Below are positions 21,764-29,096 of a stretch of DNA of 64,000 nucleotides, piece after piece (positions within the stretch are counted from its first letter, which is position 1; each line of letters begins with the position of its first letter). This DNA comes from Phycisphaerales bacterium (GTDB lineage Bacteria > Planctomycetota > Phycisphaerae > Phycisphaerales > SM1A02), in NCBI GenBank assembly GCA_029260575.1, contig JAJDDB010000032.1, positions 1 to 64,000 of the forward strand. The letters run 5' to 3'. The position numbers and the translations under genes are program-made. The notes under the pieces were generated by a model, which had not been told where the DNA came from, ran no database searches, and saw only the letters and a program-made list of their open reading frames with translations.

Positions 21764-23176
21764 TCACGGCGTTGGTTGTGCTATCAACTCCTTCAGCCGC
21801 TTGAAGCCGAATCGGGGTTTTACGGGGACGGGTTCGCCGGCAACTTCGAGCACGGGATAGGCAAGGAAGTTGATCGGGCCGGAAACCGGACCGGGCTCGA
21901 CGACCAAGTCGCGGCCGCGGCTCAATTCCACACGGTTTGCGGGGTTATGCCCGAAGTAATATGTGGCCAGCGCCGTGTACTTGTCAGCTTCGCTGATGTC
22001 GATCGGCCACCACTTGCCCTCGGCGTAGAACTCGGCCCAGCAGTGATAGCCGCTCATCCCGCCGTCATCGCGGTTGGAGGGAACCGCAGCGCCGATCGCG
22101 AACCGCGCCGGAATGCCCGATGCGCGGGCCAGCGCAATGAAGTACGAGTGATAGTCGGTGCAGTTGCCCGTGGCTGAATCGCAGGCGTACACTGCGTCAC
22201 CCTTGCCGTATTGATTCCCGACCTTGATGTAGCGCATCCTGTCGATCGTGTGGTCGTACAAAGCGCGGGCGCGTACGAGGTCATTCTGCTGCTTGTCCTT
22301 CAGAACCTCAGCTGCAATCGCGCGGAATTCATCGTTGATCGGAACGTACTGCTCAGATCCGAGATATGCACCCGGCGAATCGTTGGCATCTTCGTACACC
22401 GCCTTCTCACGGCGCTCAACCTGAAAGCGAAGTTCGATCGGCTTACCGCTGTCCTGCGGCGTCAATTCCACGAACAGCACCTTGTTCCCGTAGCGCTTGT
22501 CGGTGAGGATGCGCTGCGCGCCCGGCGTGTTGATCGCATTGATTTCAATCGACTGAAACGTATCGGTGCCCGGCAGTGGAATCCACATGCGCGCATCGTC
22601 GTCCAACTCGGGCACTGTTGCCAGATAGATGAATTCGAAGCGATCACTGCCTTCAATGACACCGAGCAGAGCCGGTTCGGCATCGTCAACTTCGGCGCGG
22701 ACCCACGTGCCGTTGCGCTGCTGTTTCCAGAGGTAAAACGGCTGGCCGTTGATCTTGTGCACTGTGGTTTCGGTGACGGTCATATTGCCGGGATCACCAG
22801 CAAGGAAGAAATCTACGTCGTAGACGTTGCCATCGGTGCTGGCCAGGTCCACGCACGCAAAATGACGGCGCGGTCCGAGGTTGGCTAAGTATTCGGTATG
22901 CACGCGCACGAGCTTGAGCCGAAGCGTTTCATCTTCATACGGCAGTGAGAAGTAGCCGCCGCCAAGTCGCGTCTGCTCTTCAATGTAATGCTCGATGCCG
23001 GCCTGAATGTCTGCCGTGACTACGTGCGGGATCGGTTCAATCGCTGCGTGTTGTGACTCCTGCGCTGTCGGCGTTGATTGACACCCGCCGATGATCGCAA
23101 CCGGAATCATAAGAGACGCAAACACGAATGAGATCGTTCTGGTATGGGACATCATCGACCGTTGAGTCGTAGCCAT
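21764..23176 (-). CDS. Transglutaminase-like lipoprotein
   Basis: A 470-residue exported protein with lipobox I-G-G-C near residue 32. The N-terminal half (about 60-290) is beta-rich with no recognised motif. The C-terminal half is a transglutaminase-like/cysteine-protease core with an apparently complete triad: C339 (G-N-C-T-D-Y-H-S), H378 (S-G-Y-H-C-W-A-E-F) and D393 (W-W-P-I-D-I-S-E-A-D). Bacterial members are usually proteases or peptide-modifying enzymes of the periplasm. AGAGGA precedes the ATG. It lies upstream of the hydroxylase gene on the same strand with a gap of about 100 nt. Confidence 0.88.
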   Translation of the reverse strand: MATTQRSMMSHTRTISFVFASLMIPVAIIGGCQSTPTAQESQHAAIEPIPHVVTADIQAGIEHYIEEQTRLGGGYFSLPYEDETLRLKLVRVHTEYLANLGPRRHFACVDLASTDGNVYDVDFFLAGDPGNMTVTETTVHKINGQPFYLWKQQRNGTWVRAEVDDAEPALLGVIEGSDRFEFIYLATVPELDDDARMWIPLPGTDTFQSIEINAINTPGAQRILTDKRYGNKVLFVELTPQDSGKPIELRFQVERREKAVYEDANDSPGAYLGSEQYVPINDEFRAIAAEVLKDKQQNDLVRARALYDHTIDRMRYIKVGNQYGKGDAVYACDSATGNCTDYHSYFIALARASGIPARFAIGAAVPSNRDDGGMSGYHCWAEFYAEGKWWPIDISEADKYTALATYYFGHNPANRVELSRGRDLVVEPGPVSGPINFLAYPVLEVAGEPVPVKPRFGFKRLKELIAQPTP

Positions 23177-23779: not shown

Positions 23780-25120
23780 ATGATGATGCGACGATTCACA
23801 ATATTCCTCCTACTGGAGTTGTTTATTCAGAGCACCGCCGGCGCGCAGGATCAGCACGCCACACAACCAACACTCGGCAACGTGATTTTTATTCACCCTG
23901 ATGGCGCATCTTCTTGTACGTGGGCAGCAGGGCGGGCGCTGCTCGTCGGGCCGGATGGCGATCTGCACTGGGATCTGCTTCCGGCGATTGCTGTATACCG
24001 CGGGCACATGGCTGACAGCCTCACAGCAACGAGTAACGGCGGCGCAACCACACATGCGTATGGTGTCAAGGTCGCATCGGACGCATTCGGTCGTACAGCA
24101 GGCGGCCCGCGCGGTGCACAGATCGTTGATGACAACGGTGCATCGCGCAGCGTCGCTGCTCAGGCTCTTGCTTCGGGTCTGTCCGTCGGGCTTGTGCAGT
24201 CGGGCACGATCACCGAACCGGGAACCGCTTGCTTTCTTGCAAACTCTGATGATCGCCACAACCACACAGACATCGCTGCTCAGCTCATTGAAAGCGGTGC
24301 AGCCGTCATTCTCGGCGGCGGCGAGCGGTACTGCCTGCCGGCAGGGCGTCGCGGCGTGTATGGAGTCGGCGTTCGTGACGACGGCCGAAACCTTGTTGAT
24401 GAAGCGAAACAGCTTGGTTATACGGTTGTGCATTCACGACAGCAACTCCTGGCGCTTTCAGATGACACCTCGAAGGTGCTTGGGCTGTTTGCTGACAAAC
24501 ACACGTTTCACGCCGCCACCGAAGAACGTCTCGCAGCTTCGAAACTGCCGCATTACCAGCCGGAGGCACCGACAATTGCGGAAATGACTGACGTTGCGCT
24601 GCGCATACTCAACGCAAAGAATACGCGTTTTCTCCTGGTTATTGAAGAAGAGGGAACGGACAATTTCGGCAATCACAACAACGCAGCCGGCGTGTTTGAA
24701 GCGCTGCACCGGGCGGACGAGGCTATCGGCGTCAGTCGTGCGTTCGTCGAGGCGCATCCGAACACGTTGGTGCTGACGGCAGCCGACAGTGATGCCGGGG
24801 GTATGCGAATGTATGGGCTCGTGTTGCATCCGGACAAACCGAAGCCGGACGTACTGCCTGAATATGATCGCAACGGCGCGCCGATAGATGGTGTCGGCGG
24901 CACAGGAACGCAGCCGTTCTGGTCGAAACCCGATCGAAACGGACAACGCCTGCCGTTCGGTATTGTCTGGGCCGCCAACGATGACATCTCCGGCGGCGTC
25001 GTTGTCCGCGCTGCAGGAATCAACAGCAAACTTGTGTACGGTTCGATGGACAACACCGATATTGCCAGGGTGATTCGAGCGACTTTATTCGGCGACGAAT
25101 ACGTATCCAAAAATAAGTAA
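23780..25120 (+). CDS. Alkaline phosphatase (PhoA family) homologue with altered Zn ligands
   Basis: A 446-residue exported protein (signal ending near S-T-A-G-A-Q). By-eye alignment to PhoA keeps the first metal Asp (V-I-F-I-H-P-D-G-A) and a serine at the nucleophile position (A-T-S-N-G-G-A-T, usually D-S-A). It also keeps V-I-L-G-G-G and the E-x-x-x-D-x-x-x-x-H block (E-E-G-T-D-N-F-G-N-H). The usual T-A-D-H-E-T-G-G is A-A-D-S-D-A-G-G, and the usual D-H-T-G is D-I-S-G, so two conserved zinc-binding histidines are replaced by Ser and Ile. It may be a phosphatase with a different metal site or a different activity. The gene is monocistronic. Confidence 0.82.
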   Translation: MMMRRFTIFLLLELFIQSTAGAQDQHATQPTLGNVIFIHPDGASSCTWAAGRALLVGPDGDLHWDLLPAIAVYRGHMADSLTATSNGGATTHAYGVKVASDAFGRTAGGPRGAQIVDDNGASRSVAAQALASGLSVGLVQSGTITEPGTACFLANSDDRHNHTDIAAQLIESGAAVILGGGERYCLPAGRRGVYGVGVRDDGRNLVDEAKQLGYTVVHSRQQLLALSDDTSKVLGLFADKHTFHAATEERLAASKLPHYQPEAPTIAEMTDVALRILNAKNTRFLLVIEEEGTDNFGNHNNAAGVFEALHRADEAIGVSRAFVEAHPNTLVLTAADSDAGGMRMYGLVLHPDKPKPDVLPEYDRNGAPIDGVGGTGTQPFWSKPDRNGQRLPFGIVWAANDDISGGVVVRAAGINSKLVYGSMDNTDIARVIRATLFGDEYVSKNK

Positions 25121-25129
25121 GATGCTTCG

Positions 25130-26956
25130 CTACTCGCAATCACCCCATTGACGAAGCAGTTCGAGCAGATCGAAAACATCAACTACGTCCGGTGGCGCAG
25201 CCAGACTTGCGCCGCGGCCATCGGTTGTCCAGTTGTCGAGCAATTCATTCAGATCGGCAATGTCCACACTACCATCGGGAAGATCAGGCCCACCAGCATC
25301 GGTGAGATCAGCTGGACACATATCCGTTACGAGCAGTTGTACATCATCGATGAAGAAGTCATCTTCAGCGCCGACAGTATCGACCCGTCTGCGAAAGCGG
25401 AATCGTGTAGCTTCAAAGACACCGTCGACGGGCAGTACATCGGCGTACGGCGTGAATGTGGTTTCATCAAATCCTTCTCCGAGAATGCGCCGTAACCGAA
25501 TCCACTCACCAGCCGTAGAGAAATATTCGATCAGGAGATTGTCACCTGGTTCTGGTGAATCGCCCGAACCTGTGCGCTGCGCCGCATAGCGCAGAATAAT
25601 CTGTGAAGTGCTGCGCGATGCAAGATCAATCGGCATCGATCGTACCTCGTCACCACCACCCCAGTTTCCATCCATGTGCAGCGCCCGTGTGCCGCTTGGC
25701 GTATTCAACGCCATTTCGTCGATCGTCGCGCCCTGGATCCACTCGTAGCGTTGTGCGTCAAAGACACCCGATTCAAAATCGTCAGCCGATGCGAAGACTG
25801 ACGGGGCAACCGATGGTGGAAGACCGAGCGTCGTATCCATCACGCCCAGGCTGTTTGTCGCAACATCGAAATATGCTTCCCACGCATGTCGAAATGCATC
25901 TAGCTTTTCGATATCAGCATCCACAATGGGTACGCCCGGCCCGTTGACAAGGATGAATGCGACCTTGAAGCGCTTCGGTGAGGTTGTTGTCGATGGACCG
26001 CGCGGTCCATGATTGTCGATTATGTCCTGCACCGTCAGGTTGATAGGAAACGTACTGACCATCACATCAAGCGCAGGAAACCGAGAATCCGGAAACGGAT
26101 CGTTCTCGAAATCCAGGACGAAGAACGGCGTAACGGTCTCCGGCGTTCGCAGACCCATGAGGTACTCGTCCAGTTCACAATACCCTGTGAACGCTTCGAT
26201 TGTCTGAAAGCCGCCGAGCACCGGCCCCCAGCGATTCCCCTCCATCGGCGAGGCGTTACCGACGCCGGGATGATGCAGGAAAAAACTCCAGTGTGCGTTG
26301 CTTCGACCAAGAATGTCTGCGCCGGTCGCAGCGGGTGGTTGCACAAACGACAGAAACTGGTGTCCGAACTCCTGACCGAGAATCTCGACGTAGGACGCAA
26401 CGCCGTTGCCAAAGAAATTTGCTGTCGGATCATCGGGATATTCCGGAAGGTCGTTCATGTTGCAGATGCCGCCGAGGCGCGTGCGCCCGATGCCGGCGTT
26501 GGGATTGCCCTGTGTCCGGTTTATCCCGCCGACAAATCCTGCTGAAATCTGAAAGAACGCAAAGCCTGCTTCCGGATCGACATCAAAGAAGTACGTACTT
26601 GCAACGTGAATAATGAGTTGGTCGTATTCATCGTTGTGCGTTTGAAAGAACGCGTTGACGATGTTTGTTGTATTGGTGGTCAATCCGCCTGCCGGTCCGG
26701 TCACGAGTGTCCCGTCATCGTGAAGAACCGCAATATCGCCGACGTCTGTTGAGGCAATACCCCGGCGCGCCTGATCGGCAGCTGTGTGCAACAGCTCCGC
26801 AAACTGCCTGGGCGTACCAAACGGATCGACTTCCGTCTGCCGTTCGTCCGGTTCATACTGGCCATTCACATACGGCGACGCGAAACCCATCGCCAGGCTA
26901 ATACACACACAGACAACTGCGTGGTGGTTTCTGATGCTCTGTACGTGTTGGTTCAC
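25130..26956 (-). CDS. Secreted metalloprotease-like protein with dockerin-like C-terminus
   Basis: About 608 residues from a GTG at 26956 (AAGGA 7 nt upstream); an ATG at 27034 would overlap the upstream gene. A signal peptide is followed by a large domain. It contains E-I-L-G-Q-E-F-G-H-Q-F, which aligns with zinc-peptidase H-E-x-x-H but with Gln for the first His, then an A-H-W-S-F-F segment and D-E-Y-L-M-G-L as in related secreted gluzincin-like proteins. A MAM/jellyroll-like domain (about 430-560) has an F-I-D-D-V-Q-L signature. The C-terminus is the dockerin-like pair (V-D-I-A-D-L-N-E-L-L-D-N-W and V-D-V-F-D-L-L-E-L-L-R-Q-W-G). It is probably cotranscribed with the BNR protein upstream (52-nt gap). 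Confidence 0.78.
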   Translation of the reverse strand: MNQHVQSIRNHHAVVCVCISLAMGFASPYVNGQYEPDERQTEVDPFGTPRQFAELLHTAADQARRGIASTDVGDIAVLHDDGTLVTGPAGGLTTNTTNIVNAFFQTHNDEYDQLIIHVASTYFFDVDPEAGFAFFQISAGFVGGINRTQGNPNAGIGRTRLGGICNMNDLPEYPDDPTANFFGNGVASYVEILGQEFGHQFLSFVQPPAATGADILGRSNAHWSFFLHHPGVGNASPMEGNRWGPVLGGFQTIEAFTGYCELDEYLMGLRTPETVTPFFVLDFENDPFPDSRFPALDVMVSTFPINLTVQDIIDNHGPRGPSTTTSPKRFKVAFILVNGPGVPIVDADIEKLDAFRHAWEAYFDVATNSLGVMDTTLGLPPSVAPSVFASADDFESGVFDAQRYEWIQGATIDEMALNTPSGTRALHMDGNWGGGDEVRSMPIDLASRSTSQIILRYAAQRTGSGDSPEPGDNLLIEYFSTAGEWIRLRRILGEGFDETTFTPYADVLPVDGVFEATRFRFRRRVDTVGAEDDFFIDDVQLLVTDMCPADLTDAGGPDLPDGSVDIADLNELLDNWTTDGRGASLAAPPDVVDVFDLLELLRQWGDCE

Positions 26957-27008
26957 CACAAATTCCTTATCCTGGTGCGCCGCGCGCTCGCACCAATCAC
27001 GCCTGAAA

Positions 27009-28778
27009 CTACGGACACGCGCCCCAGGCTTCAAGCAATTCTACGAGATCTGTTTCATCGACGTCATCGAACGGTTCCGCGATGATCGCAGGCAGTGCGT
27101 CAGTGCCCCATGCCGCAAGCAGCGCGAGCAGATCGAAAACGTCAACGACGTTGTTTGCGCCTTCGACATCTTCAAGACAGTCGCAGATGTCGGGAATGCC
27201 GTTGTCATTCAGGTCGTTGGCTGCCAATGCTGCGAGTTCACACTCATCGGGAATGCCGTTTTCGTTGCAATCGTTGCTTCCGCGATCAACGATGTCATCG
27301 CTGTCGCCGATGCCGTTGCCGTTGCAGTCGTAATCGCCGATGCGCAGGTAGTACAGATCCTGTTCGTTATTGAATGTGGCAGCGTAAATGAGGTGCGCGC
27401 CAGTCGCATCGGAGATCATGTCGTAGTAGTCGCCGAGCTTGGCTTGCTGGGGCCAGCCGAGATGGCTGTTGAACAGCGGGCTGATCGGTTCGTTTACGGA
27501 CCAGCTCTCGCCGCCATCCAGTGAGAAGCTGTAATACAACTGCGAGATGTTTGTCTGGTTGCTGTTTCGCGTGTCATTCCACACGACGTCAATACGTCCC
27601 GTCGGCGCCACATCCATTGTGCCGAACCATTGCCATGCGCCGTTGTCGATCGCATCGTCATTGACTCGCACCGGCGCGTCCCACGACTGCCCGCCATCCG
27701 TACTGCGAATCAGGTGAATATCCATAGGGTCGGAACCCGGCGGTTCAATCGACCCCAGCACATATGCGTAGCCGCGCGTCGGGCCGTCAGAGTGATCGAC
27801 ACTGACATTGAGTTGACCAAGCAGTCCTGCCGGGTTTGGGCCGACCGCCAGCCGAAGTGCGCCGCCCATGTCTACATTGCGGATGATTGCAAACGATGGA
27901 ATTATCTTGGGCGCAAACGGGTTGTTGGCCCGCACGACCCAGAACGTATTGCTCGGCGACGCGTTGCGAGCACCAGCGACATAGAGCTCTCCGTTCGGCC
28001 CGCTGTCGAGAATGCCGAAGGAGGGAAGCGCCGGATCAATCAGATTGAAATGGTCATAGAAGATCGGCTGCATCCATGTCGCGCCGCCGTCCAGTGATCG
28101 GCTGAATTGCGCCGGCGCAAACGGATTGCCCGCAATATTCCAAGCCTGGTACAGCACGCCTGTGTTCGGATCAACTTCCAGCCAGGCTTTGTCGCCTCCG
28201 ACCGCGAAGTGTTGGATCGGCCACGTTGCGCCACCATCGTCCGAGAGAAATATGTCATTGGAAAACTGGTTGCCTGCGGTGACTTTCAGGCTCAGGTAAT
28301 ACAGCGTGCCATCGGGCGCTTCAGCAAGTACCGGATCAGATCGGAACTGTCCCGAATCTAACTCAGCCTTGCGCGCCCAGGTGCGTCCGCCATCGACGCT
28401 GTATGAATACCCAGCTTCGCGGAAACTCGAAATGATCGAATCGAATTGACGCCAGCCGATGGCGATGCGATTGGGCGCGGTGGGGTCAACCGCAAGTGAG
28501 GGTTCGTTTGCGGCATCGCCAAGAATGTTTGCACCTGCAGTGTTAATGTTTGCTTGAATGCTTACAAAATCACCAAAGACAATAATCGTCCGCGGACTGG
28601 TTGATTGAGCAGGCCTGTCAGTTGGTTGGGCGTCTTCGGGCCCACGCTTCTCCAGTTGAATGTTCAGTTGTTCTGCTGCGGGGTCTGCGTCCTGAGCGAA
28701 CGCGCGATTGCAGTTGGACAGGCACGCCAGAATCGAAAACACGCCGGCGGATATCGCCGTGGAAAAATGCGTCAGCAT
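27009..28778 (-). CDS. Secreted BNR/sialidase-type beta-propeller protein with dockerin-like C-terminus
   Basis: A 589-residue exported protein. At least five Asp-box (BNR) motifs S-x-D-G-G-x-T/S-W occur (S-V-D-G-G-R-T-W, S-D-D-G-G-A-T-W, S-L-D-G-G-A-T-W, S-T-D-G-G-Q-S-W, S-L-D-G-G-E-S-W), predicting a six-bladed sialidase-like propeller (about 85-465). The sialidase arginine triad was not located, so enzymatic activity is uncertain. Calcium-binding-type repeats follow (D-C-N-G-N-G-I-G-D, D-C-N-E-N-G-I-P-D, D-L-N-D-N-G-I-P-D), then the D-L-L-A-L-L-A-A-W-G dockerin-like end. It starts a two-gene unit with the protein at 25130. Confidence 0.85.
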   Translation of the reverse strand: MLTHFSTAISAGVFSILACLSNCNRAFAQDADPAAEQLNIQLEKRGPEDAQPTDRPAQSTSPRTIIVFGDFVSIQANINTAGANILGDAANEPSLAVDPTAPNRIAIGWRQFDSIISSFREAGYSYSVDGGRTWARKAELDSGQFRSDPVLAEAPDGTLYYLSLKVTAGNQFSNDIFLSDDGGATWPIQHFAVGGDKAWLEVDPNTGVLYQAWNIAGNPFAPAQFSRSLDGGATWMQPIFYDHFNLIDPALPSFGILDSGPNGELYVAGARNASPSNTFWVVRANNPFAPKIIPSFAIIRNVDMGGALRLAVGPNPAGLLGQLNVSVDHSDGPTRGYAYVLGSIEPPGSDPMDIHLIRSTDGGQSWDAPVRVNDDAIDNGAWQWFGTMDVAPTGRIDVVWNDTRNSNQTNISQLYYSFSLDGGESWSVNEPISPLFNSHLGWPQQAKLGDYYDMISDATGAHLIYAATFNNEQDLYYLRIGDYDCNGNGIGDSDDIVDRGSNDCNENGIPDECELAALAANDLNDNGIPDICDCLEDVEGANNVVDVFDLLALLAAWGTDALPAIIAEPFDDVDETDLVELLEAWGACP

Positions 28779-29023: not shown

Positions 29024-29096
29024 GCGGGTGTAGCTCAATTGGTAGAGCGTCAGCCTTCCAAGCTGAATGTCGCCGGTTCGAACCCGGTCACCCGCT
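29024..29096 (+). tRNA. tRNA-Gly (anticodon TCC)
   Basis: A complete cloverleaf of 73 nt: acceptor GCGGGTG/CACCCGC with discriminator T, D-arm GCTC-AATTGGTA-GAGC, anticodon stem TCAGC/GCTGA with loop CTTCCAA (anticodon TCC, reading GGA/GGG), and T-arm GCCGG-TTCGAAC-CCGGT. CCA is not encoded. A TACACT box 12 nt upstream (29007-29012) could be the -10 element. Confidence 0.97.

Follow-up and report, generated by a model that had tools for sequence, protein, structure and literature searches.

Introduction

Can a member of the classic alkaline phosphatase family lose every histidine that holds zinc in E. coli PhoA, the textbook two-zinc enzyme, and remain a phosphatase? The question is raised by one gene in a 64,000-nucleotide stretch of Phycisphaerales DNA, which we refer to in full as the window. 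A sequence-only reading of this DNA had described a PhoA-family protein at 23780-25120 with two zinc ligands replaced, H370 by Ser and H412 by Ile, and with the H331 equivalent, the nucleophilic Ser and several Asp and Glu ligands retained. It left two explanations standing: the protein is an active phosphatase whose metals are held in another geometry, or a family member that is not a phosphatase.

Results

The window encodes a PhoA-fold protein

The open reading frame is intact, and its product belongs to the PhoA family, as proposed. It matches PF00245 over residues 34-434 (profile positions 3-419 of 423) with 144.8 bits (cut-off 24.4, E 4.8e-42), and PF00245 is the sole Pfam family found at E 0.001. 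The NCBIfam alkaline phosphatase equivalog PRK10518 scores 54.8 bits, under its curated cut-off of 540 bits. An AF2 model built from 71 rows (pLDDT 94.7, pTM 0.91) is predicted to adopt the PhoA fold, matching the Vibrio alkaline phosphatase 7qp8 with Z 47.3 and an rmsd of 2.1 Å over 344 aligned residues (VIA-align, a structural aligner that yields ranges rather than single-residue pairs). The 50 PDB matches listed by Foldseek are alkaline phosphatases, one of them titled just 'human phosphatase'. The probable signal peptide (Table 1) is a helix at residues 4-22 of the model, where pLDDT is low at residues 1-30; by a simple count, the N-terminus is hydrophobic in 76 of 80 relatives.

The gene stands alone, since its neighbours on both sides lie on the opposite strand. 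On one side is a transglutaminase-like gene (21764-23176); on the other, the 634-residue product of 25130-27034 has no Pfam match at E 0.01. The C-terminal motif of that product, VDVFDLLELLRQWG, resembles a motif near the end of the BNR-repeat protein encoded at 27009-28778, also on the reverse strand. Around the PhoA-fold gene, no promoter or terminator signals exceeded those of shuffled sequences. Elsewhere in the window, a tRNA-Gly (tcc) gene lies at 29024-29096 on the forward strand, and several of the open reading frames listed there are mechanical readings across the tRNA. The window's genome, a 41-contig assembly that is 95.3% complete, yielded no other PF00245 match.

All three zinc histidines are replaced

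Active-site positions were read from a MAFFT alignment of 83 rows of what proved to be a distinct branch of the family, 14 canonical planctomycete alkaline phosphatases and E. coli PhoA. The branch rows comprise the window protein, L002, L003 and 80 loci, which together represent 82 distinct genes because L002 is L040. When the branch and canonical groups were realigned apart and compared by hhalign, they paired over 386 columns (E 2.2e-55) with the same residue pairs as in MAFFT; identity to E. coli PhoA is 24% over these profile-alignment columns. A profile search of PDB sequences also pairs Asn298 and Ser337 with the zinc histidines, in two alignments that end before H412.

The window protein has replaced H331, H370 and H412 (Table 1). 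Of the Zn1 ligands (D327, H331, H412), it keeps the first as Asp294 and substitutes Asn298 and Asp402; of the Zn2 ligands (D51, D369, H370), it keeps Asp41 and Asp336 and substitutes Ser337; of the Mg ligands (D51, T155, E322), it keeps Asp41 and Glu289 and substitutes Gly148. K328 has become Asn295 and D101 has become Thr84. The Ser nucleophile and Arg166 that mark PhoA-type alkaline phosphatases are present as Ser85 and Arg159, in this protein and throughout the 83 rows.

The earlier reading was correct in pairing H370 with a serine, and in recognising the nucleophile and the acidic ligands (the D51, E322, D327 and D369 equivalents), on which MAFFT and hhalign agree. Its isoleucine at H412 is Ile403, which adjoins the true equivalent, Asp402 (Asp in 83 of 83 rows), and occupies a variable position with Ile in 3 of 83. 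The histidine that it took for H331 was probably His299, a position that is His in just 7 of 83 rows; H331 itself corresponds to Asn298 in all of them. The loss of zinc histidines is therefore real, and its extent had been understated: three zinc histidines and the third-metal site have changed, rather than two ligands. Sequence-profile alignments were also searched for other histidines at the ligand positions, which would have overturned the reading, and none was found.

Table 1. Coordinates of the gene and of its predicted signal peptide and active-site residues in the window, and loci of the tandem relatives.
Feature	Coordinates or loci	Strand	Basis or remark
PhoA-fold (PF00245) protein, branch without zinc histidines	23780..25120	+	446 aa, stop included
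Hydrophobic N-terminal stretch (about residues 1-23, end AGA-QD), probable signal peptide	23780..23848	+	by eye
His39 at PhoA I49, invariant, outside canonical ligand positions	23894..23896	+	83/83; 27/27 readable in profile-found set
Asp41 = PhoA D51, bridging metal ligand, kept	23900..23902	+	MAFFT, hhalign
Ser85 = PhoA S102, nucleophile, kept	24032..24034	+	MAFFT, hhalign
His92 at PhoA W109, invariant, outside canonical ligand positions	24053..24055	+	83/83; 28/28 in profile-found set
Glu146 at PhoA D153, third-metal site	24215..24217	+	Glu 83/83; hhalign
Gly148 at PhoA T155, third-metal ligand lost	24221..24223	+	Gly 83/83; hhalign
Arg159 = PhoA R166, phosphate binding, kept	24254..24256	+	MAFFT, hhalign
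Glu289 = PhoA E322, third-metal ligand, kept	24644..24646	+	MAFFT, hhalign
Asp294 = PhoA D327, Zn1 ligand, kept	24659..24661	+	MAFFT, PDB profile search, hhalign
Asn298 at PhoA H331, Zn1 ligand replaced	24671..24673	+	Asn 83/83; PDB profile search, hhalign
Asp336 = PhoA D369, Zn2 ligand, kept	24785..24787	+	MAFFT, PDB profile search, hhalign
Ser337 at PhoA H370, Zn2 ligand replaced	24788..24790	+	Ser 83/83; PDB profile search, hhalign
Asp402 at PhoA H412, Zn1 ligand replaced	24983..24985	+	Asp 83/83; hhalign
Tandem two-domain proteins	L123, L138, L139, L140, L141, many of L152-L173		cyanobacteria

One set of replacements recurs across the rows examined

The 80 loci are the best of 288 relatives, ranked by likeness to the window protein, from a scan of one genome per species across 84,980 species. 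The same substitutions had been suggested as something to look for in homologues, and a single set is present in every row. At 12 of 13 active-site positions the MAFFT alignment holds one residue in 83 of 83 branch rows. The equivalents of D51, S102, R166, E322, D327 and D369 are kept, while D153 is always Glu, T155 Gly, K328 Asn, H331 Asn, H370 Ser and H412 Asp; the canonical planctomycete rows keep H331, H370, H412 and T155 in 14 of 14. The D101 position is Thr in 49 rows, Ser in 33 and Gly in 1. Two further acids follow Glu289: Glu290 in 82 of 83 rows and Glu291 in all 83.

The pattern extends to additional domains. A profile search, used in place of the scan patterns, gave 28 domains from cyanobacterial genomes, 27 of them absent from the 83 rows (L149 is L065, already included); at readable positions none departs from the replacements. 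Another 71 domain extractions overlap in part with these rows and with one another: at least 21 are genes that the 83 rows already contain, and certain genes were extracted twice. The signature is complete in 62 of the 71; 7 more are fragments in agreement at every readable position, and 2 are not members (L163, a canonical PhoA, and L114, discussed below).

The residues that are kept bear on what the site could do. One possibility is an active hydrolase with a changed reaction, in which a single metal at the Zn2 site would serve the hydrolysis not of monoesters but of diesters, phosphonates or sulfates. One-metal enzymes of this kind include arylsulfatases and phosphonate monoester hydrolases, and the branch does retain two Asp and the Ser nucleophile at its Zn2 site, the second Asp being followed by a residue that is short and polar; sulfatases have Asp-Asn where the branch has Asp-Ser, and the K328 position is always Asn. 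We nevertheless regard a changed reaction as unlikely. The equivalents of Arg166 and Glu322, which serve monoester chemistry in PhoA, are invariant; the Zn1 residues Asp294, Asn298 and Asp402 are equally so, as would not be required of a site that had been lost; and at E 0.001 no Pfam family other than PF00245 recognises the protein.

Two invariant histidines offer another route. His39 and His92 recur in all 83 branch rows, and their positions are His in 0 of 15 canonical rows; the scan patterns included VIFIHPD, so the conservation of residues 35-41, with His39 among them, is partly built in. Zinc (or iron) might then still be used through relocated ligands such as these. This strikes us as quite improbable, given that the canonical ligand positions carry invariant oxygen donors and that I49 and W109, the PhoA counterparts of His39 and His92, are absent from the PhoA metal ligands given in the available text of PMC3145672. 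The two histidines may take part in metal binding; core packing is another role that they may serve.

The branch is widespread

Members from eleven named phyla appear in our tree, with labels that are mostly those of metagenome-assembled genomes (MAGs): Planctomycetota, Cyanobacteriota, Pseudomonadota (a label that looks doubtful), Verrucomicrobiota, Ignavibacteriota, Bacteroidota, Gemmatimonadota, Calditrichota, Fidelibacterota, Latescibacterota and Zixiibacteriota. The labels of L034 (Alphaproteobacteria) and L036 (Cyanobacteria) look doubtful; both rows sit with Planctomycetota beside the window protein.

Within the window's phylum, 3 of 392 genomes (its own included) encode members, at 567-639 bits. 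Another 32 have a match at E 1e-30, all of them at 107-148 bits, which leaves a clean gap below the members. Of 194 cyanobacterial genomes, sampled around one that encodes a member and counting 3 that were known before, 20 gave matches; 19 of these hold members or member fragments and 1 a canonical protein. Among 22 member genomes, chosen by hand out of the 80, 19 yielded no PF00245 protein without the branch signature. A phage origin was considered and set aside: 30 viral-contig stretches matched a pattern, and none encoded a relative.

No neighbouring gene family is broadly conserved, the maximum being 11 of 81 loci (the 80 loci and the window). That family, named by eye as carotenoid-oxygenase-like, lies upstream and divergently on the opposite strand in 11 loci, all cyanobacterial (e.g. 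L054, L072, L085 and L113). An ABC-transporter family occurs near branch members in 6 of 81 loci, the window among them; this family is common everywhere.

Cyanobacterial members often carry two domains

Many of the cyanobacteria examined encode tandem two-domain branch proteins (Table 1), in frames of mostly about 1,090-1,290 codons and up to 2,014. Where both domains are complete, both carry the signature. The frames in L156, L159, L160 and L166 look broken or cut. L140, the sole one scanned, has a C terminus of serralysin type (PF08548, E 1.2e-4, 22.3 bits with a cut-off of 20.7). Such termini go with calcium-binding secreted proteins.

Two member genomes, G407 and G410, also encode a canonical PhoA. 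Pho boxes showed no clear enrichment upstream of cyanobacterial members: with a tandem consensus and 40 random windows per locus, 5 of 26 loci reached the 10% level or lower, against an expectation of 2.6. A role in phosphate starvation is thus not supported.

A probable single switch rather than decay

When the 13 active-site columns were left out of tree building, the 36 members still fell together on one side of a branch (SH-aLRT 100). The tree holds 57 hand-picked rows and comes from a quick search with SH-aLRT as its sole support; long branches were flagged, one of which joins L114 to the members. No intermediate that keeps some of the histidines was seen in the rows examined. With a single branch and no intermediate, the metal-ligand switch seems, from these sequences, to have happened once, long ago, and to have been strictly conserved since; this counts against decay. 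Decay confined to a single gene is ruled out by the recurrence of the same residues in 83 of 83 rows.

The branch as a whole could still consist of catalytically dead PhoA relatives with a structural or phosphate-ester-binding role, as the loss of all three zinc histidines and of T155 might suggest. We consider this very improbable. None of the 83 rows departs at the nucleophile, at Arg166 or at any of four acidic ligands, the members are spread over the eleven phyla, and the intact cyanobacterial two-domain proteins examined preserve the signature in both halves. A genuinely decayed homologue, moreover, looks quite different. L114 is a PF00245 protein with a decayed site from genome G403, which also encodes an intact member (L058/L142); its changes are S102 to Gly, R166 to Ala, E322 to Asp, D327 to Ala, D369 to Lys and H370 to Arg. 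By these substitutions, L114 is apparently a PhoA pseudoenzyme.

Discussion

As far as sequence can tell, the evidence favours the first of the two explanations with which we began, an active phosphatase with another metal geometry, although the change is larger than had been stated. Neither the nucleophile nor Arg166 nor the four carboxylate ligands vary, and the substituted residues are just as constant and nearly all oxygen-bearing (T155 to Gly is the exception). We judge it fairly probable that the window protein is a secreted PhoA-fold phosphomonoesterase that uses a phosphoserine route and metal sites built of oxygen ligands only. We also lean toward the broader proposal that it represents a true PhoA lineage, zinc-free and spread across many bacterial phyla, in which each zinc histidine has given way to a specific oxygen ligand and activity depends on Ca, Mg or Mn.

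By analogy with PhoA, the kept nucleophile and arginine suggest phosphoryl transfer through phosphoserine: Ser85 would attack, Arg159 would hold the phosphate, and the reaction would pass through a covalent phosphoserine. Three metal sites can be envisioned. M1 would consist of Asp294, Asn298 and Asp402; M2 of Asp41, Asp336, Ser337 and the nucleophile Ser85; and M3 of Asp41, Glu289 and Glu146. Because Asp, Glu, Asn and Ser oxygens suit a hard ion better than they suit Zn2+, the metal is probably Ca2+, Mg2+ or Mn2+. The side chains of Asn, Asp and Ser reach less far than that of His, so the metal positions must shift or use water. Other observations count against certainty: His39 and His92 may belong to the site, Pho boxes are not clearly enriched upstream of cyanobacterial members, and no neighbour family goes beyond 11 of 81 loci. 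What the analysis itself establishes is the identity of the residues, their invariance in the rows covered, a predicted fold, one branch and its distribution; from these we infer secretion, activity, a phosphate-ester substrate, the metal and the residues that would touch it.

Parts of this arrangement have precedents among PDB titles. The equivalent of PhoA D153 in the TAB5 alkaline phosphatase is presumably His135. An entry for the TAB5 His135Glu variant has Mg bound in M3 (2w5x), and entries for the PhoA variants H331Q, H412N and H412Q indicate that these proteins fold. A solved structure of a branch member was not seen when the branch profile was run against the PDB, which returned 55 sequences, all phosphatases, at no more than 136 bits.

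If our proposal is correct, the branch is a natural, ready-made experiment on metal switching in a binuclear zinc phosphatase. Ocean studies, in the text available from PMC5454538 and PMC12206446, contrast zinc-dependent PhoA with the calcium/iron enzymes PhoX and PhoD, and the latter source describes the metals of Trichodesmium PhoA as unconfirmed. Studies that take PF00245 or 'phoA' as a mark of zinc dependence would misassign the branch, its two-domain cyanobacterial forms included, and part of PF00245 would need relabelling in surveys of phosphorus and zinc limitation.

This branch of the classic alkaline phosphatase family is apparently undescribed so far, for all that it is widespread: no description was found in searches of open-licence PMC papers, or in the accessible portions of PMC4390845, PMC7564538 and PMC10974088. 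Its activity may nonetheless be on record. We infer from two Anabaena genomes (G399 and G404), in which all PF00245 proteins found carry the signature, that Anabaena all2843 could be a member; this is a live possibility. Luo et al. reportedly characterised all2843 in 2010 as a 'classical', monomeric, heat-labile alkaline phosphatase. If it is a member, branch activity has already been recorded.

The branch shares with canonical PhoA (the E. coli, Vibrio, TAB5 and mammalian enzymes) the fold, the profile, the Ser nucleophile, Arg166, D51, E322, D327 and D369. It differs in having Asn, Ser and Asp for H331, H370 and H412, Glu for D153, Gly for T155, Asn for K328 and, in 82 of 83 rows, Thr or Ser for D101, and it forms a separate branch in the tree. 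The window protein also differs from the SPAP class, which we take to be that named PhoK, in having Ser85 and no zinc histidine and in keeping Arg159. SPAP of Sphingomonas likewise represents a branch of the PhoA superfamily whose active site has been remodelled, with loss of the third-metal pocket; according to the available text, it keeps the zinc histidines H304, H346 and H491, uses a Thr nucleophile and is without an Arg166 equivalent (PMC3145672).

Also comparable is PhoA-aty of cyanobacteria and dinoflagellates. Excerpts of PMC4548154 and PMC6723241 report that Ca, Mg or Mn, and not Zn, activate the dinoflagellate enzyme, that PhoA-aty is rich in conserved Asp and Glu, and that the dinoflagellate form, per its authors, contains no recognisable functional domains and resembles E. 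coli PhoA too little. The present branch is recognised by PF00245, over residues 34-434 of the window protein; the two are set apart here by these partial descriptions rather than by sequence. Finally, the use of metals other than zinc by secreted phosphatases would parallel PhoX, PhoD and Psip1 (Ca/Fe), as presented in the text available from PMC11098088 and PMC4223295, the former of which describes Psip1 as convergent with PhoX. Those enzymes belong to different families with different sites, whereas the fold of the branch is that of PhoA.
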